DNA of 64,000 bases from Marinosulfonomonas sp. (lineage in GTDB: Bacteria > Pseudomonadota > Alphaproteobacteria > Rhodobacterales > Rhodobacteraceae), in assembly GCA_026984915.1 (NCBI GenBank), contig JALSRG010000081.1:62001-126000 (forward strand), written 5' to 3'. Made by a program: the position numbers and the translations under genes. Shown here in pieces: positions 9,715-32,057 of this stretch. Numbering within the stretch: position 1 is the first letter of the stretch; each line of letters starts with the position of its first letter. The notes beneath the pieces were generated by a model. It was not told where the DNA came from and did no database searches. It saw only the letters and a program-made list of their open reading frames with translations.

Positions 9715-10389
9715 TCACTTGGAACCGCTCTGCAGAACACGACGAACATCAGCAAGCGTTTCCTGCAGGTCACGTGTTGCGGCTGGCTGCGAAATGCTGT
9801 GGTCAAGCCGGATACTGGCAGGCGTTCCATCCAGCAGCAGAATACGGTCGGCCAGTTCTGCTGCGTCGCTCAAGCTATGGGTTACCAGAATGGTTTGAAA
9901 TTCGGATTCATTCAGTATTTTTCTGACCATGGCCCGCATGCGGTTGCCGGTTGCTTCATCCAAAGAGGCAAAAGCCTCATCCAGAATGAGAGTGTCGGGT
10001 TTGGCGGCAAGAGCACGCGCCAGAGCGACCCGGCGTTGTTGCCCCAGCGATAGCTGACGCGGAAAGGCCTGCTGCCGCTCTTTCAACTCCACGCGTTCCA
10101 ATGCGTGCTCGGCCACCTGTTTGGTGCAGCCCGCAGCAATCAGGATATTGTCCAGAACACTGCGCCAGGGCAGCAATGTCGGTTCCTGAAAAACCATTGC
10201 AACCTTTCCAGTCCCGGCGACCGCCCCGCTAAAGTTCCGGTCCAGCCCGGCAATTATCCGCATCAGGGTGGATTTGCCGATTCCCGAAGGCCCGGTGAGT
10301 GCAAGGACTTCACCTCTCTCCAACGTCAGAGAGATCGGGCCAAGCACCTGCCTGTCACCAAAGGATTTTTCCAGGATTTCAGCTTTCAT
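9715..10389 (-). CDS. ABC transporter ATP-binding protein, NitT/TauT type
   Basis: 224 residues. Walker A is [12 protein letters not shown], the signature is [14 protein letters not shown] (Leu-Ser-Leu-Gly-Gln instead of LSGGQ), Walker B is [12 protein letters not shown] and the switch His is in [11 protein letters not shown]. The protein is somewhat short for SsuB/TauB-type ATPases. Its start overlaps the end of the permease gene by 11 bases, giving a three-gene operon (binding protein, permease, ATPase) transcribed towards gfa. The substrate is not determined by sequence. The position inside a XoxF island suggests a ligand needed for methanol oxidation, such as a metal complex, PQQ or a C1/sulfonate compound. 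Confidence 0.88.
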
Positions 10390-11179
10390 TCAGGCGCCAT
10401 CCAGAGGCCGATTTTTCCCAAGGCTGCACGATCAGGTATTCAATCGCAAGCATGATGGCAACAAAGCTCAGGGCATATGCCAGAATATGGCCAACCTCAA
10501 ACAACTGAAAATACAAATGGATCTGGAACCCGACGCCATTGCTGCGCCCCAGAAACTCAACCACCAGAACGATCTTCCAGATCAAGGCGAAACCGGTTCT
10601 TCCGGCCGCTGCAAAATGCGGCGCAAGCTGAGGTAAAATAACGTGGCGCCATGCGGATGAACGCGGCATGCGAAAAACCTGCGTCATATCGTTGAGTGCC
10701 GGGTCAAGCGAACGCGCGCCTTCGCGCATCATTACGGCGATCATTGGTATCTTGTTCAGGGCAACGGCCGTCACGGCGGCGGCTTCCGTCAGGCCGATCC
10801 AGAGATAGCACAATACGATAATGACGAGGGCCGGCAGATTCAGAAAGATGATCAGCCAGGGGTTGGCCCAGGCGTTGAAGGCTTGATTGCGTCCGGCCAC
10901 GATCCCCAACAGGCTGCCTATGCTCATGGCCAGAAAAAATGCGGCAATGACACGAAGCAGGGTGGCCAGAAGATGCCTTCCCAGTTCACCGGTTCGGGCT
11001 TCCAGCCAAAAAATACGCGCCACTTCGGTTGGTGGGGGCAACAGGCTGCTGTCGTTAATATAGCGGGACAGGGCCACCCACATCAGCAGGAACACGCCAA
11101 ATGATAGCAGACCTCTTACAAGGTTTGATCTGCTAGCTGCCCGGTGTGTAGAAGGTGCCATCTGGGAGTGATTTCGCAT
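10379..11179 (-). CDS. ABC transporter permease, NitT/TauT type
   Basis: About 266 residues with six predicted helices and the EAA loop (ALNDMTQVFRMPRSSAWRHVILPQLAP), typical of SsuC/TauC-like BPD_transp_1 permeases. The exact start is uncertain. GTG at 11200, TTG at 11188 (GGAG 6 bases upstream), ATG at 11179 and ATG at 11161 are all in frame and all overlap the preceding binding-protein gene; I list 11179. It works with the flanking ATPase and binding protein. Confidence 0.85.
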   Translation of the reverse strand: MRNHSQMAPSTHRAASRSNLVRGLLSFGVFLLMWVALSRYINDSSLLPPPTEVARIFWLEARTGELGRHLLATLLRVIAAFFLAMSIGSLLGIVAGRNQAFNAWANPWLIIFLNLPALVIIVLCYLWIGLTEAAAVTAVALNKIPMIAVMMREGARSLDPALNDMTQVFRMPRSSAWRHVILPQLAPHFAAAGRTGFALIWKIVLVVEFLGRSNGVGFQIHLYFQLFEVGHILAYALSFVAIMLAIEYLIVQPWEKSASGWRLNES

Positions 11180-12101
11180 TGCCGACAAGTTTTTCTCCAC
11201 CCAGTTCTGCCATCAATGCCAGGAATTTTGAAGCTGCTTCCAGATCAACCGGTTTTTGTTCGGGGATTCCAGCCCGGAAACCGGCTTTCAGTGCTTCAAA
11301 AGCGGCATCGCTTTTTGCCTTCATGAACGGGCGCAAACGATCCCATTCCGCATCATCCGTGGCCAGTTTGTCTTTGGCCATTCGAGAGGCCGCGGCAAAC
11401 CCTGCCACCAGATCAGGATGGTTACGTGCGAATTCACCCTTGACCACATAGCCCAGCAACGGTGTTTCCGGGTCCAGACCCAGCGCTTGTGCTGCCTCTG
11501 ACACGGAAACAAGTTCGCGAAACCCCTTGGCTTTCATCTTGGCCAGAAAGTGCCAGAAATTTATGGTTCCCTGCAATTCGCCTTGCAATGCCTTCTTGAA
11601 TATGAGTGGTGGCGCGCCAAATACCTGTTCAGTATTGGTTTTCAGGTCGAACCCTTCGCTTTTCATTGCATAGGCCTGCAGGATCAGCCAGCTTTTATCA
11701 AGCGGGCCACCGGCTATTCCAATTTTTGTGCCTTTCAGATCTGAAAGTTTTTGCGCCGGGCTGTCTGCCGGAACCATCAGGCTGCCGACCGACTTTGAAT
11801 ACGGAATGAAGACAAAATCTTTTCCGGCTGCCCGCTGTCGGGCCACCCAAATCCAATCGGAAACGATGATATCGGCCTCACCACCCTGAAAGGCAATCTT
11901 GGCAGCCGGTCCACCGGCCATGCCCATCACCTCCATTGTAAACCCGTTGGCCTTGTCAAAACCATTGTGTTGTATGGTGTTCAGTTCCCAGTTGACGGTG
12001 CCAAATTTCAGAACCGCCAGTTTCAGCGTTTCAGCCGAACTGGTAACTGTCGCGGCTACTATCAGCAGAAAAGATGCAAGAATCGCGGAAATATGGCGCA
12101 T
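11133..12101 (-). CDS. periplasmic substrate-binding protein of NitT/TauT-type ABC importer
   Basis: 322 residues with a clear signal peptide (MRHISAILASFLLIVAATVTSSA). The mature part has the SsuA/THI5-like fold pattern: LKFGTVNWELNTIQHNG, GGPAAKIAFQGGEADIIVSDW, LKGTKIGIAGGPLDKSW and TINFWHFLAKMKAKGF. In sulfonate, nitrate and pyrimidine systems this fold captures small anions or heterocycles. The ligand here is unknown. It is divergent from the response-regulator gene at 12350, with 248 bases between, a likely site for shared control. Confidence 0.86.
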   Translation of the reverse strand: MRHISAILASFLLIVAATVTSSAETLKLAVLKFGTVNWELNTIQHNGFDKANGFTMEVMGMAGGPAAKIAFQGGEADIIVSDWIWVARQRAAGKDFVFIPYSKSVGSLMVPADSPAQKLSDLKGTKIGIAGGPLDKSWLILQAYAMKSEGFDLKTNTEQVFGAPPLIFKKALQGELQGTINFWHFLAKMKAKGFRELVSVSEAAQALGLDPETPLLGYVVKGEFARNHPDLVAGFAAASRMAKDKLATDDAEWDRLRPFMKAKSDAAFEALKAGFRAGIPEQKPVDLEAASKFLALMAELGGEKLVGNAKSLPDGTFYTPGS

Positions 12102-12349: not shown

Positions 12350-13042
12350 ATGACCGATGCGGGTCGCAAAGAAGATTTTACCAAAAGCATTCGCTCGGTT
12401 CTGGTCGTCGATGATCATCCCCTGTTTTGCGAGGCTCTTTCAGCGACGTTGGAAAGCATTCTGGATCTGAACAACATTCAAACGGCAAACTCGCTGACCA
12501 ACGCTCTTGACCTTCTGAATGGGGGGCTTGAGGTTGATGCTGTGGTACTGGATCTGAACCTGCCGGACGTATCCGGTGTCGACGGTTTGTTACGTTTGCG
12601 TGCCCAAACCCCCAAAACCCCGGTTGTCGTGGTTTCGGCCCTGGGGGACAACCGTGTCATCACGGCCGTTATCGCTTCTGGTGCCGCTGGGTTCATCCGC
12701 AAGGATGCTCCAAGGGATGTTCTGGAAAATGCCTTTCGTAAAGTCTGGGCAGGAGAAACCTATTTTCCGGAGGACTATATCCGACCGTCCGGCGAAGAAG
12801 GTGCTGCGGATGAAACCGAGCAGATCGTAGAACGCCTTTCCAGTCTGACGCCGCAACAGGTCACAATCCTGAAACTGGTTTGTGAAGGCAAGCTGAACAA
12901 ACAGATTGCTTACGATCTGTCGATTGCCGAAACCACTGTAAAGGCCCATATAACCGCGATTTTGCGCAAACTCGGGGTACACAGCCGGACACAGGCGGCA
13001 CTTTTGGCCAAGGAGGCACAGTTTTCAGCTTTGTTGAAATGA
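12350..13042 (+). CDS. LuxR/NarL-family two-component response regulator (FlhR/RfdR-like)
   Basis: 230 residues. The receiver domain (about 16-135) has the acidic pair in VVDDHPLF, phospho-acceptor Asp68 (VVLDLNLPD), Ser in VVVSALGD and Lys in FIRKDAP. A LuxR-type helix-turn-helix (about 165-225; LTPQQVTILKLVCEGKLNKQIA ... ETTVKAHITAILRKLGVHSR) follows. NarL-type regulators with a partner kinase control formaldehyde and methanol oxidation in Paracoccus (FlhRS) and Rhodobacter (RfdRS); the position beside a FIST protein, a kinase and the flhA/xoxF genes makes the same job likely here. This is an inference from context. Confidence 0.9.
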   Translation: MTDAGRKEDFTKSIRSVLVVDDHPLFCEALSATLESILDLNNIQTANSLTNALDLLNGGLEVDAVVLDLNLPDVSGVDGLLRLRAQTPKTPVVVVSALGDNRVITAVIASGAAGFIRKDAPRDVLENAFRKVWAGETYFPEDYIRPSGEEGAADETEQIVERLSSLTPQQVTILKLVCEGKLNKQIAYDLSIAETTVKAHITAILRKLGVHSRTQAALLAKEAQFSALLK

Positions 13043-13102
13043 GGGGGCGTGTGAAGTAGACTTGTGGGGTTGCATGTCTTGTCTGCCAGGTGGGGAAAAT
13101 AG

Positions 13103-14281
13103 TTGGAAGCGGTTGCCGATAACAGGCCAAACAAGCTGACCGAAGGTGATGCAATCCGTATTGGTGCCTCTAGCAAAACGGATTCCGGTCAGGCAATTGA
13201 GGAAATCCAGGATGCGATTTGGCAACCGGATATTGCCTTTGTCATATTGTTTGTTTCCCCGGAATTTGACCATGATCAGCTTTCCCAGGCATTAAGTTGC
13301 GCCTTTCCGGATGTCCCGGTTCTTGGATGTACCACAGCGGGCGAGATCACCCCGGACGGCTATGCCGAAGGGGCGATTGCAGCGGTTTCTTTTTCTCGCC
13401 GGCATTTTTCGGTCTGCAACCGTTTGCTGGACCAGATCAGTACAAAGGGGATCGGTGAAATCTCCGAGATCGCCCAAAGCATGGTTGCGGAAATCGAATC
13501 AAAGCCAGGCTGGAAAAAACTGGCGTTGCTTTTTGCGGATGGAATTTCTCTCTGTGAAGATGCGGTTGTTGCCGCACTTGATGCGGCCCTTGCACCAATT
13601 CCGCTTTTTGGCGGATCAGCCGGCGATGGTATGTGTTTTCAGGAAACCTTTGTTATCCGCAACGGCGTTTTCCACTCGGATGCCGCGTTGTTGATTCTGG
13701 TCGAAACCGATTACCGGTTTGTCGAAGTCACCTTTGACCATTTTCTGCCAACGCAAAAACAGATGGTTGTCACGGATGCCAAGCCTTCCGAACGGGTTGT
13801 CTGTGAAATAAACGGCGAACCCGCAGCCGAAGAATATGCGCGCATTATCGGATATCCCAAGAAACAGCTTGGTCCTTTCCTGTTTGCCTCGTTCCCGACG
13901 CTGGTACGTGCCGGCGGGCGAAACCATGTGCGTGCAATCCAGTCCGTTATCGGTGAGACCTGTCTGAAATTCTTGTCGGCCATTGATGTGGGGCTGGTTC
14001 TGACAATCGGAGAAGCTCAGGATATTCACGGTGAAATGAAGAAGCAGTTTCATCAGCTGACCCAGGAAAACGGCAAGCCGACATTGGTGCTTGGGTTCGA
14101 TTGCATCTTGCGCAAGATCGAAATTGTGACCATCGGAGAAAAGCAGCGAATCTCGCAGATTTTCAAAGATAACAATGTCGTCGGTTTCAGCACTTACGGC
14201 GAGCAACACAATGGCATGCATGTCAATCAAACCTTTGTTGGTGTTGCCTTTTTCCAACCGCAAACGGGCCGGACATGCTGA
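13103..14281 (+). CDS. FIST-domain sensory protein
   Basis: 392 residues. It shows the FIST N domain (FVILFVSPEFDHDQLSQAL, PVLGCTTAGEITPDGYAEGAI, KLALLFADGISLCEDAVV, PLFGGSAGDGMCF) and FIST C domain (EINGEPAAEEYARIIG, LGFDCILRK, VGFSTYGEQHNGMHVNQTFVG). FIST domains are predicted to bind small ligands and are often encoded beside histidine kinases. The start must be the TTG at 13103 (GGGGA 6-7 bases upstream), since no suitable ATG or GTG exists nearby. Its stop overlaps the kinase start by 7 bases, so sensor and kinase are translationally coupled and probably act together. It has no signal peptide and should be cytoplasmic. Confidence 0.9.
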   Translation: MEAVADNRPNKLTEGDAIRIGASSKTDSGQAIEEIQDAIWQPDIAFVILFVSPEFDHDQLSQALSCAFPDVPVLGCTTAGEITPDGYAEGAIAAVSFSRRHFSVCNRLLDQISTKGIGEISEIAQSMVAEIESKPGWKKLALLFADGISLCEDAVVAALDAALAPIPLFGGSAGDGMCFQETFVIRNGVFHSDAALLILVETDYRFVEVTFDHFLPTQKQMVVTDAKPSERVVCEINGEPAAEEYARIIGYPKKQLGPFLFASFPTLVRAGGRNHVRAIQSVIGETCLKFLSAIDVGLVLTIGEAQDIHGEMKKQFHQLTQENGKPTLVLGFDCILRKIEIVTIGEKQRISQIFKDNNVVGFSTYGEQHNGMHVNQTFVGVAFFQPQTGRTC

Positions 14282-16527
14282 TCAACCCGGAAGATTCGCT
14301 CGAACGTCAGGTAGAAAAACTGCAAAAGATTGTGCGGTCCCTGATGCAGCGGGTCGAGCAAAGCAGCGAGATGGGCGCAACGCCCTATGCCTTGTTTCAA
14401 ACCGCGATCAATCTTGAAAACCGGGTCAACCTTCGTACGGCCGACCTTCAGAATGCGCTGGACGATCTGAGCCATACCCATGAAGAACTGTCGCGGGCCT
14501 TGGCAGATGCCGAATCTTCGCGCCAGAATCTGCTTGATGCCCTTGAGGCGATGAGCGAAGGCTTTGCCCTGTTCTCTGATGACGCTCTGGTGATCTGCAA
14601 TGAAAGGTTCCGCCGGCTGCTGCCGGATGTTGCCGACAAGATTGTCGAGGGAATGAGTTTTGACGAATACACCCGGGTTGTTTCCCAGAGTTCCGGTCTG
14701 GAACTGGAGGAAGGCCAGGACAGAACGGAATGGCAGGCGTTTCGCAGGCGGCAGCACGGACGCAGGCGCGCGACATTTGTGGTCCGCCTGAAGGGGGATC
14801 GTTGGATTCAGGTGTCTGACCGTTCCATGTCCAAAGGACGTGCCGCCATTGTGCATACGGATATTACCGAGATGGTGCGCGAACAGCGCCTGCAACGGGA
14901 CCAGATACTCGATCGTCAGGCGCGTCTGGCGCGGGCAACCATTGACCATATGAGCCAGGGTGTCTGCACCTTTGACGCAGATCACAGGCTGGTGACAAGC
15001 AACAGCCGTTTTCACGAATTGCTTTCTCTGCCGGTCCGGCTGGCGCAGGACGGGGCCAGGCTGGAGGAGATTCTGCGTTATCTCGATGATGATATTCTGG
15101 AAAGCAACACGCTCATCCGCAAGCTTTTACCTTGGATCAGAAACGCAGACCGGCGCACAACTCTGAAACTTGATGTGTGCCGGTCCGACGGTATCATTCT
15201 GACAGCCAGTTTTCGCAAGCTGCCGGATGCAGGGTTTGTGGCCAGCTTTACAGATGTAACCGCCGAACGTCAGGCGGCCGAAGCCTTGGCGCGGTCAAAG
15301 GCAACGCTTGAATTGCGAGTTGCCGAGCGCACTTCGGCATTGACCAAGGTCAATAGCCAACTGGTTCGAAAATCACGAGAACAGGAACGGGCCGAACTGG
15401 AAATGCGTGCAGCCAAAGAAGCCGCCGAAGCCGCCAATCTCTCCAAGACCCGGTTTCTGGCCGCGGCCAGTCATGATTTGTTGCAACCGCTGAATGCTGC
15501 CAAACTGTTCTTGTCAAATCTGCAGGATACGCGCCTCGACAACAAGCAGGTTGAAACGATCAGCAGTCTGAGCCGGTCCTTCAATTCTTTGGAATCCATC
15601 CTGAATGCATTGCTCGATATTTCGCGTCTGGATGCGTCAGGGGCGGAGTTTTCTGTCAAGCCCCTGCGCCTGAATTCGGTTTTCGCGGCTTTGAAGGAGG
15701 AGTTTGAGCAACTGGCTGTCAGCAAGGGGATAACACTGAAAGTCATGCAAACCAGCGCCGTGGTGAATAGTGATGCAACCTATTTGCAGAGAATCATTCG
15801 CAACCTTCTTTCCAATGCAATAAAATACACTGACAGCGGCAAGGTGTTGCTTGGCTGCCGCCGAAAAGACAAAAAGGTCGCCATCTGCGTTCTGGATACG
15901 GGGCCGGGAATAGCCAAGAAAGATCAGAAAAGGATATTCGAGGAGTTTTTGCGCCTTGGTAATGACAACCATGATCAGGGCATGGGGCTTGGCTTGTCAT
16001 TTGTCGAACGCGCCTGCCGCCAGCTTGGGCATGATCTGAAGTTGCTGTCAAAACCTGGCGCCGGTTCCCAATTTCAGGTCAGTTTGGAATGTTCACGCCT
16101 GGCGCCTCTGGAAAATCGGATTGAGTTCGAAGAACAAGCTGCTGAACACCCCGAAGAAATGGATGTGCTGGCGGCATTGGTGGAAAATGACAGGGAAGTC
16201 CTTTCGGCGATGGTTGGCACACTTGAAAAGTGGGGTGTTAGCGTCATGCCGGCCAAATCAACCAGCGAACTGATGGCACTTGTAGAAGAATTGGGTGTCC
16301 CGCCGGATGTTATCATTGCCGATTATCATCTGAACGGAGAGGATACCGGCCTTCACAGCATAGATTTGCTGCGGCGCAGGTCTGGCACGCGAATTCCGGG
16401 GATTCTGGTCACTGCGGACCGTGGCCATCAATTGCGCCGTGCCGCAAAGGAAATGGGGGTGGATATTCTGACGAAACCTCTGAAGCCACAGGCTTTGCGG
16501 GCCTTGTTGAACTGGACTTTGCAATAG
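14275..16527 (+). CDS. hybrid sensor histidine kinase (NahK/FlhS-like)
   Basis: 750 residues with no obvious membrane helix. Order: N-terminal coiled coil (VEKLQKIVRSLMQRVEQ), two PAS-like domains (about 85-200 and 220-335), coiled coil, HisKA domain with phospho-His400 (AASHDLLQPLNAAK), HATPase with N box (NLLSNAIKYTDSG) and G boxes (LDTGPGIAKKD, GMGLGLSF), then a C-terminal receiver with Asp683 (VIIADYHLN) and Lys in LTKPLKP. It is coupled to the FIST gene and should phosphorylate the LuxR-type regulator upstream. Soluble PAS kinases paired with FIST proteins are seen near PQQ-alcohol-dehydrogenase genes in other bacteria. Confidence 0.92.
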   Translation: MLINPEDSLERQVEKLQKIVRSLMQRVEQSSEMGATPYALFQTAINLENRVNLRTADLQNALDDLSHTHEELSRALADAESSRQNLLDALEAMSEGFALFSDDALVICNERFRRLLPDVADKIVEGMSFDEYTRVVSQSSGLELEEGQDRTEWQAFRRRQHGRRRATFVVRLKGDRWIQVSDRSMSKGRAAIVHTDITEMVREQRLQRDQILDRQARLARATIDHMSQGVCTFDADHRLVTSNSRFHELLSLPVRLAQDGARLEEILRYLDDDILESNTLIRKLLPWIRNADRRTTLKLDVCRSDGIILTASFRKLPDAGFVASFTDVTAERQAAEALARSKATLELRVAERTSALTKVNSQLVRKSREQERAELEMRAAKEAAEAANLSKTRFLAAASHDLLQPLNAAKLFLSNLQDTRLDNKQVETISSLSRSFNSLESILNALLDISRLDASGAEFSVKPLRLNSVFAALKEEFEQLAVSKGITLKVMQTSAVVNSDATYLQRIIRNLLSNAIKYTDSGKVLLGCRRKDKKVAICVLDTGPGIAKKDQKRIFEEFLRLGNDNHDQGMGLGLSFVERACRQLGHDLKLLSKPGAGSQFQVSLECSRLAPLENRIEFEEQAAEHPEEMDVLAALVENDREVLSAMVGTLEKWGVSVMPAKSTSELMALVEELGVPPDVIIADYHLNGEDTGLHSIDLLRRRSGTRIPGILVTADRGHQLRRAAKEMGVDILTKPLKPQALRALLNWTLQ

Positions 16528-16631
16528 CGCTTTCTGCGCACGAACGCAGGGGGCCTAGACCAATTGCCGATACAGAAAAAGCCGTAAAAGGGTTACGGAA
16601 AATGAAGGTTCAGAAAGATTGGAGATGTGGA

Positions 16632-17300
16632 ATGCTCTCTCTCTCAAGATTGTTTGCCCGGATTGCCCTGATTGCGGCTCTGGCGGGGGCGACCAGCAGT
16701 AACGCCAGCCCTGCGACCGACCTTGTCTTTTCGGCAGAGGCTCTCAACAACATACCGGCCAGATCGGAAGTTACCTATTTGCACGAACGCTCCGGTACAG
16801 GAGAAAAGCTGTTTCATCCGGTAAACGGCACCGCCTCGCTTAGGTTGCAGCCAGGGTCCGACGGAAACCAAGTGATCCTGACAATGCGGGAAGACGGCAA
16901 ACTCCGCAGTCAGACACCCTTTCCAGCCGATGTTGGCAACCCGCTGGTCATGGCATTTCTGGAATACACCCTGCGCTCCATGGCCCAATCAACAGGTGGC
17001 AGCCCGTTCTATCTGCGCAACCGGATAAAGGACTCTCTCAGGTCTGGGGGGACGGTGGAAAATGTGACGGTCAAGATCAACGGTGAGGATATCAAGGCCC
17101 AGGACGTGGTTTTCCGCCCGTTCATGCAGGATCCGAACGCGCCGAAGATGGGCGATTTTGCCAGGCTGGAGTTGCATTTCGTTGTGGCGCAATCGGTTCC
17201 GGGCGGATTTGTCCGGTTTCAGGCCGCCACACCTGACAAGGATGGCAAGCGCCTGTATCGTGAGGTCATCGAATACGCAACCTTGTCCAGACAGGAGTAG
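16632..17300 (+). CDS. secreted protein of unknown function, XoxF-island associated
   Basis: 222 residues with a clean signal peptide (MLSLSRLFARIALIAALAGA, cleavage near SNASPA). The mature part is beta-rich (LVFSAEALNNIPARSEVTYL, GTASLRLQPGSDGNQVILTM) and resembles lipid-carrier-like beta-sandwich or barrel proteins only in overall character; I do not recognise the family. I chose the ATG at 16632 because GGAG lies 7 bases upstream and it yields a proper signal peptide; an ATG at 16602 adds ten atypical residues. It is followed 3 bases later by the small Cys protein and sits downstream of the kinase. Confidence 0.75.
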   Translation: MLSLSRLFARIALIAALAGATSSNASPATDLVFSAEALNNIPARSEVTYLHERSGTGEKLFHPVNGTASLRLQPGSDGNQVILTMREDGKLRSQTPFPADVGNPLVMAFLEYTLRSMAQSTGGSPFYLRNRIKDSLRSGGTVENVTVKINGEDIKAQDVVFRPFMQDPNAPKMGDFARLELHFVVAQSVPGGFVRFQAATPDKDGKRLYREVIEYATLSRQE

Positions 17301-17303
17301 GCC

Positions 17304-17666
17304 GTGAAACACCTGAACCGATTTCTTGCAGCAGCAATTGCCGCCGGGCTTGTGAACGTCGCGCCGGTCATGGCGCAGAACGTTCTCAATCTCAGTGACT
17401 ATCCGACCGAGGCGCGGGCTGACTACGTGTTTGCCTGTATGGCGGTCAATGGTATGAACCGCCGATCGCTTTCACGCTGCTCCTGTTCGATTGATGTGAT
17501 CGCAAGCATCCTGACATATGATGATTATGTCAGTGCCGAGACGGTTCTTTCCATGCGGCAGGTCGGGGGCGAAAATACCGGAATGTTTCGCGATTCAGCC
17601 ATGGCAAAAGGCGCGGTGGCTGATCTGCGCCGCGCGCAGGCCGAGGCCGAAATCCGCTGTTTCTGA
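17304..17666 (+). CDS. small secreted cysteine-containing protein, unknown function
   Basis: 120 residues with a signal peptide (MKHLNRFLAAAIAAGLVNVA, cleavage after VMA). The mature part contains four cysteines: Cys45, the close pair Cys59-Ser-Cys61 (RCSCSIDVIAS) and the penultimate Cys119. Starts at GTG 17304 with AGGAG 6 bases upstream, three bases after the preceding gene. I do not recognise the family. The pattern suggests two disulfides or a metal site in the periplasm, as for other quinoprotein helpers. Confidence 0.72.
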   Translation: MKHLNRFLAAAIAAGLVNVAPVMAQNVLNLSDYPTEARADYVFACMAVNGMNRRSLSRCSCSIDVIASILTYDDYVSAETVLSMRQVGGENTGMFRDSAMAKGAVADLRRAQAEAEIRCF

Positions 17667-17870: not shown

Positions 17871-18731
17871 TCATGACTCGTTTCTGACAACGGGAAAGCT
17901 CTGCTCAAACACTTCCCCTTCGGTGTCGGATGCGCGGACACGGATGGTATCGGCACCATTGTCGGTATAGGTGAACCGGAAACTGGGGTCCGTGCTGATG
18001 GAAATTCCGGCCTCCAATTTGAACAACAGTTCTTCGCCCTGATAGACTTCGAGTTCATCAATAAAGCGCGGGCTGATAAACAAATGGGTCATCTGATCGC
18101 GCTGCAACCCCGAATAATTCGGGTGTTTGATCATCACTTGCGCCACGCGGCGTACGCCGGATGCCGGTACGGACTGTTGCAATGTATCGGTCGCGTTCAG
18201 GGCCGCAGTGAGCTTCTCAAGCTGCTTCAGCTTCATCCGGCCCAGTGATGCCATCGCCGCTGCAGCGTCCTTTGCAGCCGGTGCCGAACATCCGCCAGAT
18301 GCCTTGACATAACGGCCTACCATCAGCGTATCACCTGTTTCGGTTGTGGCAATGGCGCGGATGTTTGAATATTGGTTGACCCGTACCCGGGTTTCCAGAT
18401 CAAGCGGATACATGGCCTTGCCAAAAGTGAACGTGGCAACCAGTGGTGAAGGATTTTCATCAATGACCAACATCATGGTCGTGATATGATCACGGCTATC
18501 GGCTGGCTGAGCGATATGTACAGGAACCGTTGCCGCATCAAAGGCCCGGAAAGGGGCTTCCATGCTTACCCGTCCGGTTCCGTCGGACAATTGTACATCA
18601 CCGACGATATCTCCCTTCAGATCGGCCCAGGTCGGGCTGTCTATCATCGGGTTGTCTTTCTCGGTGCCTGCAAAGCCAATGGTTGAGGACAGTACAACGG
18701 CCGCAACCCCGGTCAATATCCGTTTCATCAT
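17871..18731 (-). CDS. quinoprotein dehydrogenase-associated SoxYZ-like carrier (first copy)
   Basis: 286 residues with a signal peptide (MMKRILTGVAAVVLSSTIGF). The N-terminal domain is SoxY-like and ends in GGCSAPA with Cys148; the C-terminal domain is SoxZ-like (VMIKHPNYSGLQRDQMTHLF ... FIDELEVYQGEELLFKLEAG ... FRFTYTDNGADTIRVRASDT). The mature protein contains exactly one cysteine, at the position of the SoxY swinging-arm thiol. This fits the TIGR04557 family. The name implies a periplasmic carrier of a covalently bound intermediate; the cargo is unknown. Start at ATG 18731 with GGGAGA upstream. Divergent from the metallohydrolase gene. Confidence 0.87.
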   Translation of the reverse strand: MMKRILTGVAAVVLSSTIGFAGTEKDNPMIDSPTWADLKGDIVGDVQLSDGTGRVSMEAPFRAFDAATVPVHIAQPADSRDHITTMMLVIDENPSPLVATFTFGKAMYPLDLETRVRVNQYSNIRAIATTETGDTLMVGRYVKASGGCSAPAAKDAAAAMASLGRMKLKQLEKLTAALNATDTLQQSVPASGVRRVAQVMIKHPNYSGLQRDQMTHLFISPRFIDELEVYQGEELLFKLEAGISISTDPSFRFTYTDNGADTIRVRASDTEGEVFEQSFPVVRNES

Positions 18732-18927: not shown

Positions 18928-19974
18928 ATGGTGTCACTTGTCCTGACGGTTTGTCTTGCGATGCAGACAGATGTCTGTGCGCAACGCCTGTTGCCTGTTG
19001 CCACGGTGGAAACACAGGCTCAATGTCAGGCATCCGCAGTCGAAAGGCTTGCGGCGTGGCAGGCTCGACATCCGCAATTTGTTGCCAGCGAATGGTCCTG
19101 CAAGACACCGGATCTTTCGCCGCTGGCGGTGAAGGAAGTTGCACCGGGAATTTGGGTGCACAAAGGCCTGAATGAAATCCCGTCGCCGGAAAATGCCTCG
19201 GATCTGGCCAATATTGGTTTTGTTATTGGCGAGGAAGCGGTTGCCGTGATTGATGCGGGGGGCTCGCGTCTCGTGGCCGAGCGTCTGCTTCTGGCAATCC
19301 GCGAAAAAACGGACCTGCCAATCCGCTGGCTGGTTCTGAGCCATATGCATCCTGATCACGTCATGGGCGCGTCGCTTTTTGTTGATGCCGGGGTGCCGGT
19401 GGTTGGCAGTCCGACATTGCCGGCAGCGCTTCAGGCGCGCGCAGAAACATATGAGGCAAACTATGACCGGCTGATTGGCCCGCAGCAGATGATCCTGTCA
19501 CAGGTGATTGACCCGGAAGGGATTACAACCGATGTTTCGCAACTTGACCTGGGAAAGCGCCGTCTGCTGCTGAGTGCACATCCCACCGCCCATACCAACA
19601 ACGATTTGACGGTCTATGACCCCAATAGCAAAACAATCTGGATGGCTGACCTTGTTTTCGCCCAGCACATACCGGCGCTGGACGGCTCTATCCGCGGCTG
19701 GATCAGTGTTCTGGATGAAATGCGCCCGTTTGATGCGCGCCGGCTGGTGCCCGGTCATGGCCCGGCAAGCCTGCCCTGGCCCGAGGGGATGCAGGCAACC
19801 TATGACTATCTGACAGCGCTTGCCGGCGAGGTGAAAGAGGCAATCGATAGTGGCGAAAGCCTCGGCAGTGCCGTCACCCATGTGGGTGAAGACTTGCGGG
19901 GAAACTGGATGCTTTTTGACGAGTTCAACGCCCGGAACGTAACCGCAGCCTTTGCAGAACTGGAATGGGAGTGA
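18928..19974 (+). CDS. quinoprotein relay system zinc metallohydrolase
   Basis: 348 residues of metallo-beta-lactamase fold: LVLSHMHPDHVMG gives the HxHxDH zinc motif (near residues 137-142), then LLSAHPTAHTNNDL, IWMADLVFAQH and LVPGHGP provide the further His/Asp ligands. An N-terminal region of about 65 residues (four Cys: LTVCLAMQTDVCAQ, EAQCQ-type and WSCKTPD) precedes the domain; a short hydrophobic start could act as signal. It matches the TIGR04559-type enzymes found with SoxYZ-like carriers and PQQ dehydrogenases. The substrate is unknown; a hydrolase releasing a cargo from the carrier is a natural guess. ATG at 18928 follows GGAGGA. Confidence 0.87.
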   Translation: MVSLVLTVCLAMQTDVCAQRLLPVATVETQAQCQASAVERLAAWQARHPQFVASEWSCKTPDLSPLAVKEVAPGIWVHKGLNEIPSPENASDLANIGFVIGEEAVAVIDAGGSRLVAERLLLAIREKTDLPIRWLVLSHMHPDHVMGASLFVDAGVPVVGSPTLPAALQARAETYEANYDRLIGPQQMILSQVIDPEGITTDVSQLDLGKRRLLLSAHPTAHTNNDLTVYDPNSKTIWMADLVFAQHIPALDGSIRGWISVLDEMRPFDARRLVPGHGPASLPWPEGMQATYDYLTALAGEVKEAIDSGESLGSAVTHVGEDLRGNWMLFDEFNARNVTAAFAELEWE

Positions 19975-19976
19975 TC

Positions 19977-20579
19977 CTATTCAAGATGTGATTGCAAGGC
20001 GCGGGAAATGGCAAAAATGCGTTTCTCAAGGATAACCGGCGTTTCACAGACGTAGGTCAGCGACTGGCGTCTTTCCTTGAAGATTCTTTCATCCCAGATC
20101 AGGGTGTCTTCCATTTCTTCCAGTTTATCCAGGTTCGGGTTTTCCTGCGCTTTCAGATTGCGGATTTCCGTTCGTTTGGTCTCAATGGATTTTGAAAGCT
20201 CTGTTTGTGTTTTGGCATAGCGCGCAATGCCGGACATGACAGCGTTTCTCTCCTGATTGATCAGGGTAAAAGCCTGATCAAAGACGGCGGTCAGCTTGTC
20301 CGATTTGTCTGCGCCCAATCCCTTGGCAAAATCGTCAATCATCTTTTCCGCGTCTTCGATGGGAATGCGCCGCAAAGCCAGCTGTGCCGCAATTGCCTGT
20401 ATATCGGGATCTGTTTCCAGCTGGCGGATGCGATCCGTAATCTCGGGGCCTGCCCACATCAGACCGGGGGTAAGGCTGGGAACCTTGCGCTGTTGGCAGG
20501 GCCATTCAGGATCATCAAACGATGCGGCGGAAGATGGGGAGGCTGCCATGAGTAGTGCCAACAGGAATAATGTGCGCAT
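19977..20579 (-). CDS. secreted coiled-coil protein of unknown function
   Basis: 200 residues with a signal peptide (MRTLFLLALLMAASPSSA). The mature protein is largely helical with a probable coiled coil (ELSKSIETKRTEIRNLKAQE, about residues 125-160) and two cysteines (PWPCQQRK-type near residue 28 and TYVCETP near 177). It ends 2 bases from the convergent metallohydrolase gene. The family is not recognised; similar proteins seem to accompany XoxF islands. Start at ATG 20579 with AAGGAA upstream. Confidence 0.72.
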   Translation of the reverse strand: MRTLFLLALLMAASPSSAASFDDPEWPCQQRKVPSLTPGLMWAGPEITDRIRQLETDPDIQAIAAQLALRRIPIEDAEKMIDDFAKGLGADKSDKLTAVFDQAFTLINQERNAVMSGIARYAKTQTELSKSIETKRTEIRNLKAQENPNLDKLEEMEDTLIWDERIFKERRQSLTYVCETPVILEKRIFAISRALQSHLE

Positions 20580-21632: not shown

Positions 21633-22745
21633 ATGAAAACACGCGCTGCAGTAGCTTTTGAAGCCGGAAAACCGCTGGAAGTGACCGAAGTCAATCTGGA
21701 AGGCCCCAAAGAGGGCGAAGTTCTGGTTGAAATCAAGGCAACCGGCATCTGCCACACCGATGAATTCACCCGCTCGGGCGCAGACCCGGAAGGGCTGTTT
21801 CCGGCGATTCTGGGGCATGAAGGCGCCGGCGTTGTCATGGAGGTCGGCCCGGGTGTGACAAGTCTGAAACCCGGCGACCATGTCATTCCTCTCTACACAC
21901 CCGAATGCCGCGAGTGCGAATACTGCCTGAACCCGAAAACCAACCTGTGCCAGTCTATCCGCGAAACACAGGGTAAGGGGCTGATGCCGGACGGGACATC
22001 GCGGTTTACCACACTGGATGGAGAGCCGATCCTGCATTACATGGGCTGTTCGACATTTTCAAATTTCACGGTGATGCCGGAAATAGCGCTGGCCAAGGTG
22101 CGCGAAGACGCCCCGTTTGACAAGATTTGCTATATCGGTTGCGGTGTAACGACCGGCATTGGTGCGGTCATCAACACGGCTAAGGTGGAAATTGGCAGCC
22201 GTGCCATTGTGTTTGGTCTGGGCGGCATTGGACTGAATGTCATTCAAGGTTTGCGGCTAGCCGGAGCAGACCAGATTGTCGGTGTGGATCTGAACCCGGC
22301 AAAAGTGGAAATGGCAACGCGGTTTGGGATGACCGATTTTGTCAACCCGTCCGAAGTTGATGGCGATTTGGTTGCCTATCTTGTGGCCCTGACCAAAGGT
22401 GGGGCCGATTATACATTTGACGCAACCGGCAATGTCGGCGTCATGCGCACGGCGCTTGAAGCGGCCCACAAGGGCTGGGGTGAAAGCATCATTATCGGAG
22501 TCGCACCGGCGGGGGCTGAAATTTCAACCCGCCCGTTCCAGCTTGTTACCGGGCGCAGTTGGCGTGGAACGGCCTTTGGCGGCGCGCGTGGGCGCACGGA
22601 TGTCCCCAAGATCGTGGATTGGTACATGGAGGGCAAGATCGAAATCGACCCGCTGATCACCCACACGATGCCGCTTGAGGATATCAACAAGGGTTTCGAT
22701 ATGATGCACGCCGGTGAAGGTATCCGCAGCGTGGTGATTTACTGA
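21633..22745 (+). CDS. flhA: S-(hydroxymethyl)glutathione dehydrogenase / class III alcohol dehydrogenase
   Basis: NAD-dependent oxidation of S-hydroxymethylglutathione to S-formylglutathione. The 370-residue protein has the catalytic zinc site ([20 protein letters not shown]), the structural zinc cysteines ([15 protein letters not shown]), the [17 protein letters not shown] segment and the Rossmann motif [12 protein letters not shown]. The closing [27 protein letters not shown] region is typical of class III ADH. GGGGA precedes the ATG. The next gene, S-formylglutathione hydrolase, starts 1 base after the stop. The name flhA follows Paracoccus usage; adhI or frmA are synonyms. Confidence 0.96.
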
Positions 22746-22746
22746 G

Positions 22747-23574
22747 ATGAAAACCATTTCTGAAAACGCCTGTTTCGGCGGCACCCAGGGCGTTTACAGC
22801 CATTCGTCCAAGGTTTGCAATTGCGATATGACCTTTGCGGTTTACCTGCCACCACAAGCCAAATCCGGCCCCGTGCCGGTGCTGTGGTATCTGTCCGGCC
22901 TGACCTGCACCCATGAAAACGCGATGACCAAGGCCGGGTTGCAGGAACATGCGGCCCGCCGGGGCATTGCCGTGGTTTTCCCCGACACCAGCCCGCGCGG
23001 CGAAGATATTGCCGATGACGAGGATTACGCGCTTGGTCAGGGTGCAGGGTTTTACGTGAACGCAACGGAAAAGCCCTGGGCCCCGCATTTCCAGATGTAT
23101 GACTATGTGTTGAAGGAATTGCCGCAGCTTGTGGCTGATCAGTTTCCCGTGAACGATTTGCGCGGCGTAACAGGCCACTCGATGGGGGGGCACGGGGCGA
23201 TTACCTTGGCTTTGAATAACCCTGAGCGGTTTCAGTCTCTTTCGGCCTTTGCCCCGATCGCGAACCCGACCGAGTCAGACTGGGGCCGCAAGCAATTGGC
23301 GGCGTATCTCGGAACAGATGAAGCAAAATGGGCGCCACATGATGCAACGCTGCTGATCAGGAACAAAGGATGGCACGGTGATATTCTGGTGGATCAGGGC
23401 ACAAGCGACCCGTTCCTGGAGTTGCTGAAGCCCGAGAGCCTTTCGCAGGCCTTGGCCAGCGAACGTGTCCCGAGTGTTTTTCGCATGCAGGCGAATTACG
23501 ACCATAGTTATTTCTTCGTTTCCAGCTTTTCTGCGGACCATGTTGACTGGCACGCAGACAGGCTGCTCTCCTAA
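22747..23574 (+). CDS. fghA: S-formylglutathione hydrolase
   Basis: Serine hydrolase that converts S-formylglutathione to formate and glutathione. 275 residues with the oxyanion-side segment YLSGLTCTHENAMTKAG, the nucleophile elbow GHSMGGHGA (Ser near 147), and DQGTSDPF and YDHSYFF supplying the Asp and His. It is the esterase D family. Placed directly behind flhA, it completes the glutathione pathway begun by gfa at 8.9 kb. A strong terminator follows at 23607. Confidence 0.96.
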   Translation: MKTISENACFGGTQGVYSHSSKVCNCDMTFAVYLPPQAKSGPVPVLWYLSGLTCTHENAMTKAGLQEHAARRGIAVVFPDTSPRGEDIADDEDYALGQGAGFYVNATEKPWAPHFQMYDYVLKELPQLVADQFPVNDLRGVTGHSMGGHGAITLALNNPERFQSLSAFAPIANPTESDWGRKQLAAYLGTDEAKWAPHDATLLIRNKGWHGDILVDQGTSDPFLELLKPESLSQALASERVPSVFRMQANYDHSYFFVSSFSADHVDWHADRLLS

Positions 23575-23628: not shown

Positions 23629-23858
23629 CCCGCGTCGTTCGTGCCGTTGACAGGCTGTTTTTCAACTGCGCCACCTACGACTAACGGCCAGTTGCCCTGT
23701 GACAAACTGTCAGCCTTAATAAGAGTCTCAATAGAGGAAACTCGCTGCTACGTGACGCCCGATAGGGGTCATGCTCTGTCAGGTGGTCGGGGGTGTGGAG
23801 GAAACATCCAACAGATCGGCAGCGCGGGGAACCATCCCGGCCAAACAAGGAGGAAAGC
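23629..23858 (+). promoter_or_regulatory. xoxF upstream region
   Basis: 230 bases between the fghA terminator and xoxF with no gene. It contains a small inverted repeat TGACA-AAC-TGTCA at 23700-23712 and TTGACA at 23647-23652, neither with a convincing -10 at the usual distance. An excellent AAGGAGGA ribosome-binding site lies 5 bases before the xoxF ATG, consistent with high expression. It must contain the xoxF promoter and leader. Confidence 0.5.
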
Positions 23859-25658
23859 ATGAAGTATATTCTCACAGGCGCTGCAGCAATGCTGATGACC
23901 AGCATGATGCCTGCGGTTGCCAATGAATCCGTCATGAGCGCGACGGCGGATCCGGCAAACTGGGCGATGCAGGCCGGCAACTATGCCAATACCCGCTATT
24001 CGACCCTGGACCAGATCAATGCCGACAACGTCGGAAATCTGCAGGTTGCCTGGAGTTTCTCGACAGGTGTTTTACGTGGGCACGAGGGTTCACCGCTGGT
24101 CATCGGCGACGTGATGTATGTACATACGCCGTTTCCGAATATCGTTTACGCACTGGATTTGAACAACGACGGAAAAATCCTGTGGAAATATGAGCCAAAG
24201 CAGGATCCGAATGTCATTCCGGTGATGTGCTGCGATACTGTCAATCGCGGCCTGGCCTATGCCGATGGCAAGATTTTCCTGCATCAGGCAGATACCACAC
24301 TCGTGGCTCTGGACGCCAAAACCGGCGAAGCTGTCTGGTCGACGGTAAACGGTGACCCGACAAAGGGTGAAACAAATACCGCCACGGTTCTGGTGGTAAA
24401 GGACAAGGTTATCGTGGGGATTTCCGGCGGTGAATTTGGCGTGCAAGGCAGTGTTACAGCCTATAATATCAGCGATGGGACACGTGCCTGGCGGGCCTAT
24501 TCAGTTGGCCCGGATGACCAAATTCTTATGGATCCCGAAAAGACAACCGTGCTGGGAAAACCGGTCGGTAAGGATTCAAGCTTGAAAACCTGGGAAGGTG
24601 ATCAGTGGAAAATCGGCGGCGGTACAACCTGGGGCTGGTATTCCTATGATCCCGAACTGAACCTGATCTATTACGGTACTGGCAACCCATCGACCTGGAA
24701 CCCGGCCCAGCGTCCTGGCGATAACCGTTGGTCGATGACCATCATGGCGCGTGATGCGGATACGGGCATGGCCAAATGGGTCTATCAGATGACCCCGCAT
24801 GATGAATGGGATTATGACGGCATCAACGAAATGATCCTGACAGATCAGGAGATTGACGGCCAGATGCGCAAGGTCCTGACCCATTTTGACCGGAACGGTT
24901 TTGGTTATACGCTTGACCGGGAAACAGGTGAGCTTCTGGTTGCCGAACTGTTTGACCCGGCTGTCAACTGGACAACCGGTGTCGATATGGATCCGAACTC
25001 GCCAACATATGGCCGCCCGGCCGTTGTTGCGGCAAAGTCCACCGAGCAGAATGGCGAGGATGTAAACTCGACAAATGTCTGCCCGGCGGCTCTTGGCAGC
25101 AAAGACCAACAGCCAGCAGCCTATTCGCCAAAAACCGAGCTGTTCTACGTGCCGACAAATCATGTCTGCATGGATTATGAACCGTTCCATGTATCCTACA
25201 CCGCTGGCCAGCCTTATGTCGGTGCGACCCTGTCGATGTATCCGCCAGAAGGCGAAACCAACATGGGCAACTTCATTGCCTGGGACGGCAAAACCGGCAC
25301 CATCAAGTGGTCTGACCCAGAGCAGTTCTCGGTCTGGTCCGGGGCGCTGGCAACGGCCGGTGATGTGGTGTTCTATGGCACGCTCGAAGGCTATCTGAAG
25401 GCGGTCGATGCCAAGACAGGCAAGGAACTGTACCGGTTCAAAACCCCATCGGGTATTATCGGTAACGTCATGACCTATTCGCATGGTGGCAAACAGTACG
25501 TTGCTGTCTATTCAGGCGTAGGCGGCTGGGCTGGCATCGGACTGGCGGCCGGGCTGACCAATCCGAATGACGGATTGGGCGCTGTGGGCGGTTATGCGGC
25601 CCTGAGCGACTATACGGCTCTGGGCGGAACCCTGACTGTCTTTACCCTGCCAAACTAG
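23859..25658 (+). CDS. xoxF: lanthanide-dependent PQQ methanol dehydrogenase XoxF
   Basis: Periplasmic quinoprotein that oxidises methanol (and possibly formaldehyde) with PQQ and a rare-earth ion. 599 residues, signal peptide [21 protein letters not shown]. Visible features are the adjacent disulfide Cys124-Cys125 (VMCCDTV), metal ligand Glu192 (GGEFGVQG), Asn276 (GTGNPSTWN), catalytic Asp318 and, two residues later, Asp320 (DEWDYDGIN). Asp320 is the extra acid that marks lanthanide-type XoxF; calcium-type MxaF has Ala there. Repeated propeller motifs such as [15 protein letters not shown] support an eight-bladed fold. No mxaF or mxaI gene is in the window. Confidence 0.97.
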
Positions 25659-25748: not shown

Positions 25749-26285
25749 ATGAAAAAAACGACCAACACGTATGTATCATTTACCGCTGCCAGCCTGATGA
25801 TCCTGTCATATGGTATGGCAACACCGGCACTGGCAGCAGGTGTTCAGGACACGGCCGCCGCCTACAGCGAGGGAGGCCGGTATTTTACCAAGGACGATAT
25901 CCCGACCTTTAATATCGGCGAGGATGGAACTGTCGATTGGCCCACATACGAAGGATTTCGCAGGTATCATTCGGAATGCCACGTTTGCCATGGGCCGGAA
26001 GGCGAAGGGTCAAGCTATGCCCCGGCTTTGAAAAAGTCGGTCATGAATATGGATTATTACGATTTCCTGGAGATTGTCGCAGGCGGAAAAGAGGAATCAA
26101 AGGGCGGTACCGAGTTTGTGATGCCCAGTTTTGGCACCAACAAGAATGTCATGTGCTATATTGATGATATTTACGTGTATCTGAGAGCCCGTGGGGCCGA
26201 CGCCGTTCCGCGTGGACGGCCCAGGAAGAAGGAGCCCAAATCGGATGAAATCCGGCAAGCACAAAAGGACTGTCTGGATGGCTAG
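25749..26285 (+). CDS. xoxG: c-type cytochrome XoxG, methanol-oxidation electron acceptor
   Basis: 178 residues with a signal peptide (MKKTTNTYVSFTAASLMILS ... ALAAG). One haem-binding motif, CHVCH (Cys77, Cys80, His81), is preceded by DWPTYEGFRRYHSE; a likely axial Met is in VMPSFG. It matches the methanol-metabolism-related cytochrome family TIGR03874. It takes electrons from XoxF and passes them to the respiratory chain. I chose the ATG at 25749, since upstream codons lie in the hairpin region. The C-terminal tail is basic (RPRKKEPKSDE). Its stop overlaps the start of xoxJ. Confidence 0.93.
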   Translation: MKKTTNTYVSFTAASLMILSYGMATPALAAGVQDTAAAYSEGGRYFTKDDIPTFNIGEDGTVDWPTYEGFRRYHSECHVCHGPEGEGSSYAPALKKSVMNMDYYDFLEIVAGGKEESKGGTEFVMPSFGTNKNVMCYIDDIYVYLRARGADAVPRGRPRKKEPKSDEIRQAQKDCLDG

Positions 26286-30681: not shown

Positions 30682-30826
30682 GGGCTTATGCTTGCTTACG
30701 CATGAAAGGCAGGCAACAGGACCAAAGTATAGGGGGTATACCATTGCGTGGTTGGCGCTGGTAGGTCTAGTCTTTGGCGAACGGGAATGGTCTGGAAAAC
30801 AGCAGAATTCTCCCGACGGAGGTTTA

Positions 30827-32038: not shown

Positions 32039-32057
32039 CAACAAAAGGATGAAAAAG

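Follow-up and report, generated by a model that had tools for sequence, protein, structure and literature searches.

Genes of the locus

The window, by which we mean the whole 64,000-nucleotide stretch of DNA that was analysed, holds a methanol island with two fused SoxY-SoxZ carrier genes. Its main features are given below; the homologue counts refer to the 80 carrier loci described further on.

16602–17300, plus strand: conserved protein outside any named family, apparently secreted (homologues at 71 of the 80 loci)
17304–17666, plus strand: conserved four-cysteine protein outside any named family, apparently secreted (homologues at 73 of the 80 loci, the four cysteines kept)
17871–18731, minus strand: carrier 1, a fused SoxY-SoxZ carrier (TIGR04557, 286 residues, single Cys148 in KASGGCSAPA)
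18928–19974, plus strand: SoxH-related hydrolase of the metallo-beta-lactamase fold (TIGR04559, "quinoprotein relay system zinc metallohydrolase 2")
19977–20579, minus strand: conserved protein outside any named family, apparently secreted (homologues at 68 of the 80 loci)
21633–22745, plus strand: probable glutathione-dependent formaldehyde dehydrogenase, named from sequence reading
22747–23574, plus strand: probable S-formylglutathione hydrolase, named from sequence reading
23853–25658, plus strand: PQQ alcohol (methanol) dehydrogenase (TIGR03075, motif WDYDG)
25752–26285, plus strand: c-type cytochrome (TIGR03874, methanol metabolism-related)
26266–27117, plus strand: MoxJ/XoxJ-like periplasmic binding protein (TIGR03871)
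27114–27677, plus strand: rhodanese-fold protein (PQQ CXXCW, TIGR03865), with conserved Cys138 and Cys142
27701–28537, minus strand: carrier 2, a second fused SoxYZ carrier (TIGR04557, 167.8 bits against a cut-off of 140; arm SGLGACAAPP)
28623–29588, minus strand: beta-propeller protein adjoining carrier 2
29585–30127, minus strand: SRPBCC protein (PF10604, Polyketide_cyc2)

The dehydrogenase at 23853–25658 is an enzyme that we take to be XoxF-like. The probable formaldehyde dehydrogenase and S-formylglutathione hydrolase genes (21633–23574) sit between the SoxH-like hydrolase and the dehydrogenase. No Pfam or NCBIfam match over cut-off was found for the products of 16602–17300, 17304–17666 and 19977–20579.

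Several further genes lie on either side. At 30572–35110 there are an ABC substrate-binding protein, a beta-propeller protein and an ATPase (TIGR03863, TIGR03866 and TIGR03864, all over cut-off), together with a putative permease; these three families make up the ABC system found at loci for PQQ alcohol dehydrogenases. This system is probably of the lut/ped lanthanide uptake type. The lut cluster of Methylorubrum imports lanthanides, and the available portion of that article contains no word beginning with "Sox" (PMC7391723). At 12350–16527, a response regulator and a large protein resembling a hybrid histidine kinase, as judged by eye, are placed around a NosP-like FIST protein, which scores 394.6 bits and is below the NosP cut-off of 450. 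The ABC transporter at 9715–12101 has a binding protein that is weakly sulfonate/taurine-like (below the curated cut-offs), with homologues in 3 of the 80 loci.

Structure and family of carrier 1

The carrier 1 reading frame is intact, from an ATG at 18731 to a stop at 17871, and a signal peptide is apparent by eye at the N-terminus of its product. A SoxY domain covers residues 41–148 (Pfam PF13501, 4.7e-29), and a SoxZ domain covers residues 193–279 of the same chain (Pfam PF08770, 1.8e-22). Cys148 is the sole cysteine of the whole protein. The domain matches and the cysteine count confirm the sequence-only reading, which had described a SoxY-SoxZ fusion with one cysteine, in GGCSAPA, inside the chain and followed by a SoxZ-like domain. 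The GGC of carrier 1 was aligned with the GGC close to the C-terminal end of the SoxY chains 4uwq_B and 2ox5_Y; therefore, Cys148 occupies the place of the swinging-arm thiol, as had also been claimed.

The AlphaFold2 model of carrier 1 (mean pLDDT 88.4) contains the SoxY and SoxZ folds together. In a fold search, its SoxY part resembled 2oxg_Y with a TM-score of 0.83 by target length, and its SoxZ part resembled 1v8h_A with a TM-score of 0.75. The blocks that include the arm (residues 141–160) have pLDDT values of 74–75, and a linker block (residues 181–190) has a value of 56.

Judged from its sequence, carrier 1 is a member of a family that has already been named, TIGR04557, "quinoprotein dehydrogenase-associated SoxYZ-like carrier". 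It matches the profile over its full length with 253.4 bits (cut-off 140; residues 35–276 on profile positions 1–226 of 226), SoxY and SoxZ are fused in it, and a quinoprotein dehydrogenase system is nearby, namely the TIGR03075 enzyme at 23853–25658 with the cytochrome and the MoxJ-like protein. It is very improbable that carrier 1 is instead an ordinary thiosulfate-oxidising SoxYZ that was fused by chance. Homology to SoxY and SoxZ agrees with such an origin, but carrier 1 is far below the cut-offs of the canonical equivalogs (SoxY_true, 57.2 versus 125 bits; SoxZ_true, 51.4 versus 76 bits), and its GGCSAPA arm is internal, unlike the terminal GGCGG of separate SoxY proteins. The genome also has true, separate soxY and soxZ genes on another contig, where the split SoxY (L003) ends in VTIGGCGG, and its only SoxB is on contig C113, while the window is on C81. 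Moreover, the split SoxY and SoxZ rows part from the fused carriers at 99% in a quick tree of 89 rows, whose support values are all SH-aLRT.

A second carrier in the same island

The sequence-only reading held that there was no other Sox gene nearby. This does not hold, because carrier 2, also of TIGR04557, lies 9 kb from carrier 1, and the SoxH-related metallohydrolase gene adjoins carrier 1 divergently. Carrier 2 has a different arm (GACAAPP, compared with GGCSAPA in carrier 1), and Cys142 is the single cysteine of its mature form. These two are the only fused carriers of the genome that exceed the TIGR04557 cut-off.

In the 89-row tree, carrier 1 falls within a set of 26 rows (98%) and carrier 2 within a set of 16 GAC-arm rows (100%), and both sets are contained in one larger set (97%). 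Fourteen GGGC-arm rows form another set (95%), to which five rows with other arm types are joined (98%). The presence of two arm types among the carriers of one methanol island may perhaps reflect two steps or two partners. Among the 43 loci with a rhodanese gene, a stricter profile test found carrier 2 to be present in 31 and absent despite sufficient room in 10, with 2 undecidable.

Two carriers also occur in genome G468 (locus L250, C1:2827200-2846700), where they group together (95%) and belong to one gene run; this arrangement is apparently separate from that of the window. The L250 run comprises a XoxF-like enzyme, a weak cytochrome match, MoxJ, a carrier, a beta-propeller protein, an SRPBCC protein, a degenerate hydrolase and the second carrier, and it also includes a weakly thioredoxin-like protein.

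The SoxH-related hydrolase

The hydrolase at 18928–19974 scores 368 bits against TIGR04559 (cut-off 280). In an alignment, the seven ligand positions of its predicted metal site are intact (H139, H141, D143, H144, H222, D241 and H277). The AlphaFold2 model has a mean pLDDT of 97.2. The solved structure closest to it is 8d2z, an unassigned Burkholderia protein (Z 31.6, rmsd 2.4, 273 aligned residues), followed by chlorothalonil dehalogenase 6uxu (Z 29.7, rmsd 2.7, 275 aligned residues) and then by beta-lactamases. Alkylsulfatases of the SdsA1 type are among the Foldseek matches listed, and neither glyoxalase II nor ETHE1 was found among the best 50 Foldseek or VIA-align rows, an absence that carries no weight against such a kinship. 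The nearest solved structures and the alkylsulfatase matches do not favour a thioesterase.

Eight of 126 aligned hydrolases, the window's included in the total, depart from the seven-ligand set. Four have NHDYHGH at these positions (L115, L259, L260 and L261), where NLHPDY replaces HxHxDH and the later Asp is missing. The L250 hydrolase has HREFSGH, and two others (L202 and L203) have Asn in place of Asp241. The eighth deviating row (L208, G000:C88:16433-17281) is from the window genome itself; it is a distant hydrolase relative that scores 151 bits, below the TIGR04559 cut-off, and its ligand positions are unconserved in an alignment that may be off there. The broken-site hydrolases that stand beside fused carriers are as follows.

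L115, 7709–8461: NHDYHGH
L259, 8442–9260: NHDYHGH
L260, 8491–9351: NHDYHGH
L261, 8454–9287: NHDYHGH
L250, 10086–10919: HREFSGH

Two of the four NHDYHGH proteins were scanned (L115 and L259), and both nonetheless exceed the TIGR04558 cut-off ("zinc metallohydrolase 1"). The L250 protein is below the cut-offs of both TIGR04558 and TIGR04559. In all, seven low-scoring hydrolases were scanned, of which five were over the TIGR04558 cut-off and two (L250 and L196) were below it. With these five broken metal sites beside carriers, and Asn for Asp241 in L202 and L203, hydrolysis cannot be universal; the five broken sites argue against its being an obligatory step.

The type of carrier arm and the score class of the hydrolase, divided at a limit of 240 bits that we set ourselves, agree in 113 of 114 pairs less than 3 kb apart. 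Over 54 loci, the carrier–hydrolase pair gave the highest distance correlation of six gene pairs (r 0.94). This adds little, because all six pairs lie between 0.73 and 0.94 and the genes travel together.

Conservation of the arm cysteine and of the neighbourhood

Relatives of carrier 1 were collected by scanning genome contigs with the pattern [FY][VI]KA[AS]GGCS, which returned at least 588 relatives, and 80 loci were kept. Because the pattern includes the cysteine, these 80 carriers cannot show its conservation. However, all 57 carriers that were found without a cysteine-containing pattern retain the cysteine, as do all 31 second-type (GAC) carriers of the 80 loci. An alignment of 169 fused carriers was made with the window included, identical rows removed and limits of at least 120 bits and 200 residues; 80 of its members came from the cysteine-containing pattern. 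Exactly one cysteine lies within the aligned region of 165 of these carriers, and P151 is conserved in 166. In an alignment of 18 sequences, the invariant positions include N93, P94, G146, C148, P151, H203, P204 and G208. On the evidence of these alignments, the single arm cysteine is not a chance feature.

Neighbours in the 80 loci were counted as best phmmer matches among the window proteins (E 1e-5), so that a few distant homologues are included, and many loci are cut by contig ends. With this reading of the numbers, the hydrolase was found in 76 loci, the histidine kinase in 67, the response regulator in 63, the FIST/NosP-like protein in 61, the formaldehyde dehydrogenase in 58, the XoxF-like dehydrogenase and the formylglutathione hydrolase in 47 each, the cytochrome in 44, MoxJ and the rhodanese in 43 each, carrier 2 in 33 and the beta-propeller protein in 29. 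A phylum-wide sample supplied 36 carrier stretches, each about 19 kb long, in which neighbours were counted at 55 bits or more: the hydrolase was near in 31, the rhodanese in 25, a dehydrogenase in 16 and MoxJ in 11. Four of the 80 and five of the 36 loci have no intact hydrolase nearby, and tblastn also gave no full hydrolase there.

Occurrence across genomes

Matches with internal stops were left out of the carrier counts by that criterion alone. In the class sample, 20 of 240 genomes were over the TIGR04557 cut-off, and two of them (G197 and G087) were omitted for internal stops, which leaves fused carriers in 18 of 240. In the phylum sample, 17 of 50 over-cut-off genomes were omitted on the same ground, untranslated, which leaves 33 of 299. 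The idea that full-length TIGR04557 matches with stops inside them represent interrupted or recoded carriers was rejected, because those that were translated (L021, L024, L026, L028, L029, L032 and L033) are in-frame pairs of soxY, stop and soxZ.

A TIGR04559 hydrolase over cut-off is present in 13 of the 240 class genomes, and all 13 are among the 18 carrier genomes (Fisher p about 8e-18, ignoring relatedness); these genome-wide counts are for TIGR04559. Whole-genome searches were made in five carrier genomes that showed no hydrolase near the carrier. Three of them (G391, G321 and G317) hold an over-cut-off hydrolase elsewhere, G238 gave a weak match only, and G125 gave no hydrolase at E 1e-25. 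SoxB occurs in 25 of the 240 class genomes and in 4 of the 18 carrier genomes, with none shown in the other 14; therefore, genomes that lack the thiosulfate Sox pathway still retain the carrier. An association between the carrier and SoxB was considered and is not significant (Fisher p 0.10).

Two genomes (G130, 97% complete, and G155, 79% complete) have carrier and hydrolase and gave no PQQ alcohol dehydrogenase at E 1e-80. Thus, service to the quinoprotein is a strong trend and not a rule. In G130, carrier and hydrolase lie side by side (L194, C1:277500-297000). Conversely, G131 has a XoxF-like enzyme with neither a fused carrier nor a TIGR04559 match, so the relay must be dispensable.

Type of the neighbouring dehydrogenase

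An Asp two residues past the catalytic Asp (DxD) marks the lanthanide type of PQQ alcohol dehydrogenase, and by this sequence motif the window enzyme is of that type. A looser form of the motif pattern also caught chance WD matches, and only WD[FY][DSTA] beside the usual flanking residues was read. A first sample consisted of 80 stretches around over-cut-off dehydrogenases, leaving out the window's own and one in G071; several stretches were cut by contig ends, and the last held none. Its 82 dehydrogenase reading frames comprised 50 with DxD and 32 with Thr or Ser at that position. A fused carrier lay within 9 kb of 11 of the 50 DxD enzymes and of none of the 32 others (Fisher p 0.005, ignoring relatedness), and 8 of the 11 XoxF-like dehydrogenases have one. 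All 45 typed dehydrogenases in the 80 carrier loci are also DxD enzymes. Lanthanide use may not extend to some DxD enzymes from remote groups.

The first sample thus suggested that carriers were strictly confined to lanthanide-type loci. This was weakened by three loci of the second sample (L262, L267 and L271), where carriers are near DxS/DxT dehydrogenases only, and the lanthanide link is therefore kept as a trend. WDFDG enzymes occur elsewhere in the genomes G413 and G368, and no DxD enzyme was found in G285 at E 1e-80. MxaI (PF02315), a marker of the calcium methanol dehydrogenase, was found in none of the 240 class genomes, and the controls were equally without a match, so this marker is uninformative.

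Candidate thiol partners

In the rhodanese-fold protein, Cys138 is conserved in all 74 sequences and Cys142 in 72 of 73. Near the carrier, a WCPIC thioredoxin was found in 5 of the 36 phylum loci (L246, L247, L249, L252 and L253), and a DsbD/CcdA protein was also found in three of them (L249, L252 and L253). A Pfam check of the thiol partners covered two thioredoxins and one DsbD/CcdA protein (L247 and L253). In L246, L247 and L253, the hydrolase, carrier and rhodanese genes point in the same direction; in L249 and L252, no hydrolase was found near the carrier. No homologue of the thioredoxin or of the DsbD/CcdA protein was found in the window. The rhodanese, thioredoxin and DsbD/CcdA neighbours fit a thiol that needs a reduced state, without proving it.

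Proposed relay and alternatives

A conserved single arm cysteine, together with a hydrolase that occurs only with the carrier in the 240-genome sample, is at the level of sequence the signature of a load-and-hydrolyse relay. We consider it probable that carrier and hydrolase form such a relay. Cys148 would sit on a presumably mobile arm between the SoxY-like and SoxZ-like domains, and the partners of carrier 1 would be the dedicated SoxH-like hydrolase and a quinoprotein alcohol dehydrogenase that is in most cases of the lanthanide type. The thiol may capture the aldehyde made by the dehydrogenase as a covalent load, and oxidation of this adduct would give an S-acyl thioester (here S-formyl), from which the hydrolase could free the acid. 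The two-cysteine rhodanese-fold protein, in some lineages with thioredoxin and DsbD/CcdA, might keep the carrier thiol reduced. The sequence-only reading had proposed a periplasmic covalent carrier of some intermediate, serving the quinoprotein in a relay not yet defined biochemically. Such a carrier remains the best reading of the conserved cysteine, the fold, the hydrolase and the context; the same reading is already contained in the curated family names (TIGR04557, with TIGR04558 and TIGR04559 for the relay hydrolases), and such fusions are discussed in PMC11237559 and PMC12997753.

The nature of the cargo is much less certain than the relay. An aldehyde that passes into a thioester is favoured because the dehydrogenase makes an aldehyde and because the carrier persists in genomes lacking SoxB. 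Nevertheless, an aldehyde cargo is only a tentative assignment, and the whole scheme, in which thiol carrier and hydrolase turn an aldehyde into a thioester and serve the quinoprotein, is in our analysis the best explanation while being somewhat doubtful as a whole. Minimal RB-TnSeq effects in Pseudomonas putida without rare earths (PMC12997753) were counted against an aldehyde relay. A rhodanese partner suits sulfur chemistry at least as well. Because of the rhodanese, sulfur clearance is almost as likely as an aldehyde cargo, which still leaves it rather unlikely in itself: carrier, rhodanese and SoxH-like hydrolase would bind thiosulfate, sulfite or persulfide and clear them from the surroundings of the quinoprotein, and so prevent PQQ adducts. 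The SoxY and SoxZ ancestry of the carrier speaks for this, as do the frequency of the two-cysteine rhodanese-fold protein (43 of 80 and 25 of 36 loci) with its invariable first cysteine and the alkylsulfatases among the hydrolase's listed Foldseek matches. Thiosulfate inhibits growth of Hyphomicrobium on methanol, as cited in PMC11237559 and PMC12997753, and a Sulfurimonas strain is said to use SoxH in place of SoxB (PMC11237559). However, SoxB is found in few carrier genomes, a direct role of the S2 and S4 fusions in sulfur metabolism is judged unlikely in the available portion of PMC11237559, and sulfur clearance alone leaves the DxD-only placement of carriers in the first sample unexplained.

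A third account places the relay in dehydrogenase assembly, for example in the formation of the vicinal disulfide or as a PQQ thiol adduct during insertion. A maturation or redox role has been proposed (PMC12997753), the island also encodes a MoxJ-like protein, and the rhodanese, thioredoxin and DsbD/CcdA neighbours would suit thiol-disulfide work. We regard maturation as unlikely, and less likely than the other two, because the vicinal CC is shared by every one of the 32 non-DxD dehydrogenases in the first sample, none of which has a carrier within 9 kb; this argument is itself weakened by the second sample, in which some non-DxD enzymes do have a carrier. The XoxF-like enzyme of G131, which lacks carrier and TIGR04559 hydrolase alike, also stands against maturation, and disulfide formation would not be expected to involve a hydrolase.

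The aldehyde relay can be extended to a more speculative form, to which we give a low probability: a protein-bound version of the glutathione pathway in the periplasm, in which a swinging-arm thiol would take the aldehyde from a lanthanide-type quinoprotein into a thioester for the hydrolase, with two carriers in one island. The TIGR04557 family is widespread and usually accompanies alcohol oxidation by PQQ enzymes, for the most part lanthanide-type ones. Should its thiol carry aldehyde, the oxidation of methanol in the periplasm would include a step between alcohol and acid that has gone unrecognised; should the load be sulfur, the carrier system would be a protection for PQQ.

Comparison with known systems

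Parts of this arrangement are on record. Fused SoxYZ-S2 beside a PQQ alcohol dehydrogenase and SoxYZ-S4 beside xoxF, with soxH near, were described in mSystems in 2024, and carbon rather than sulfur metabolism was argued for them (PMC11237559). SoxH has been noted at xoxF5 (PMC5934484), SoxYZ-like fusion proteins served as an outgroup in 2019 (PMC6382920), and a Pseudomonas locus holds a SoxY-like gene and an MBL gene (PMC12875217). The SoxZ-like protein Snov_1060, a possible member of TIGR04557, was expressed throughout (PMC3797975). In the literature searched, to which subscription papers and preprints did not belong, we found no published functional test, cargo or adduct of a TIGR04557 carrier. 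Among the papers listed on XoxF and periplasmic formaldehyde, none mentioned a hemithioacetal, and those listed on SoxH with metallo-beta-lactamase were unrelated.

The context of carrier 1 is the same as that of SoxYZ-S4, in a paper that concerns symbionts (PMC11237559). The count of hydrolase co-occurrence, the match between carrier arm and hydrolase type, the GAC-arm carrier as the second of a pair and the broken hydrolases go beyond the account in its available portion. Sulfur clearance has likewise been published as speculation, for SoxYZ-S4 and for PP_2666, PP_2677 and PP_2678 of P. putida (PMC11237559, PMC12997753). These three P. putida genes, discussed in PMC12997753, belong to the ped cluster and form the same trio as in the window, that is, a SoxYZ-like carrier (PP_2677), a SoxH-like hydrolase (PP_2678) and a rhodanese (PP_2666). 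The ped system serves the alcohol dehydrogenases PedE and PedH, whereas the window has a XoxF-like methanol island with two carriers. The TIGR04557 name makes no distinction for the GAC-arm clade to which carrier 2 belongs.

Canonical SoxYZ works with SoxXA and SoxB on thiosulfate (PMC12423496). The Paracoccus pantotrophus SoxYZ (2OX5, 2OXG) shares the SoxY fold and the place of the arm GGC with carrier 1; however, it consists of two separate chains with a terminal arm, while carrier 1 is fused and its arm is internal. The logic of the Sox pathway is oxidative conjugation to the SoxY cysteine, followed by hydrolysis by SoxB. In glutathione-dependent formaldehyde oxidation, a thiol hemithioacetal is converted to a thioester, which is then hydrolysed to formate. 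We know of no homology between that pathway and the carrier, and the likeness is one of analogy only, in that the same logic of a thiol plus a hydrolase is proposed for carrier 1. The glutathione pathway uses a small-molecule thiol in the cytoplasm, whereas the thiol of carrier 1 belongs to an apparently secreted protein.
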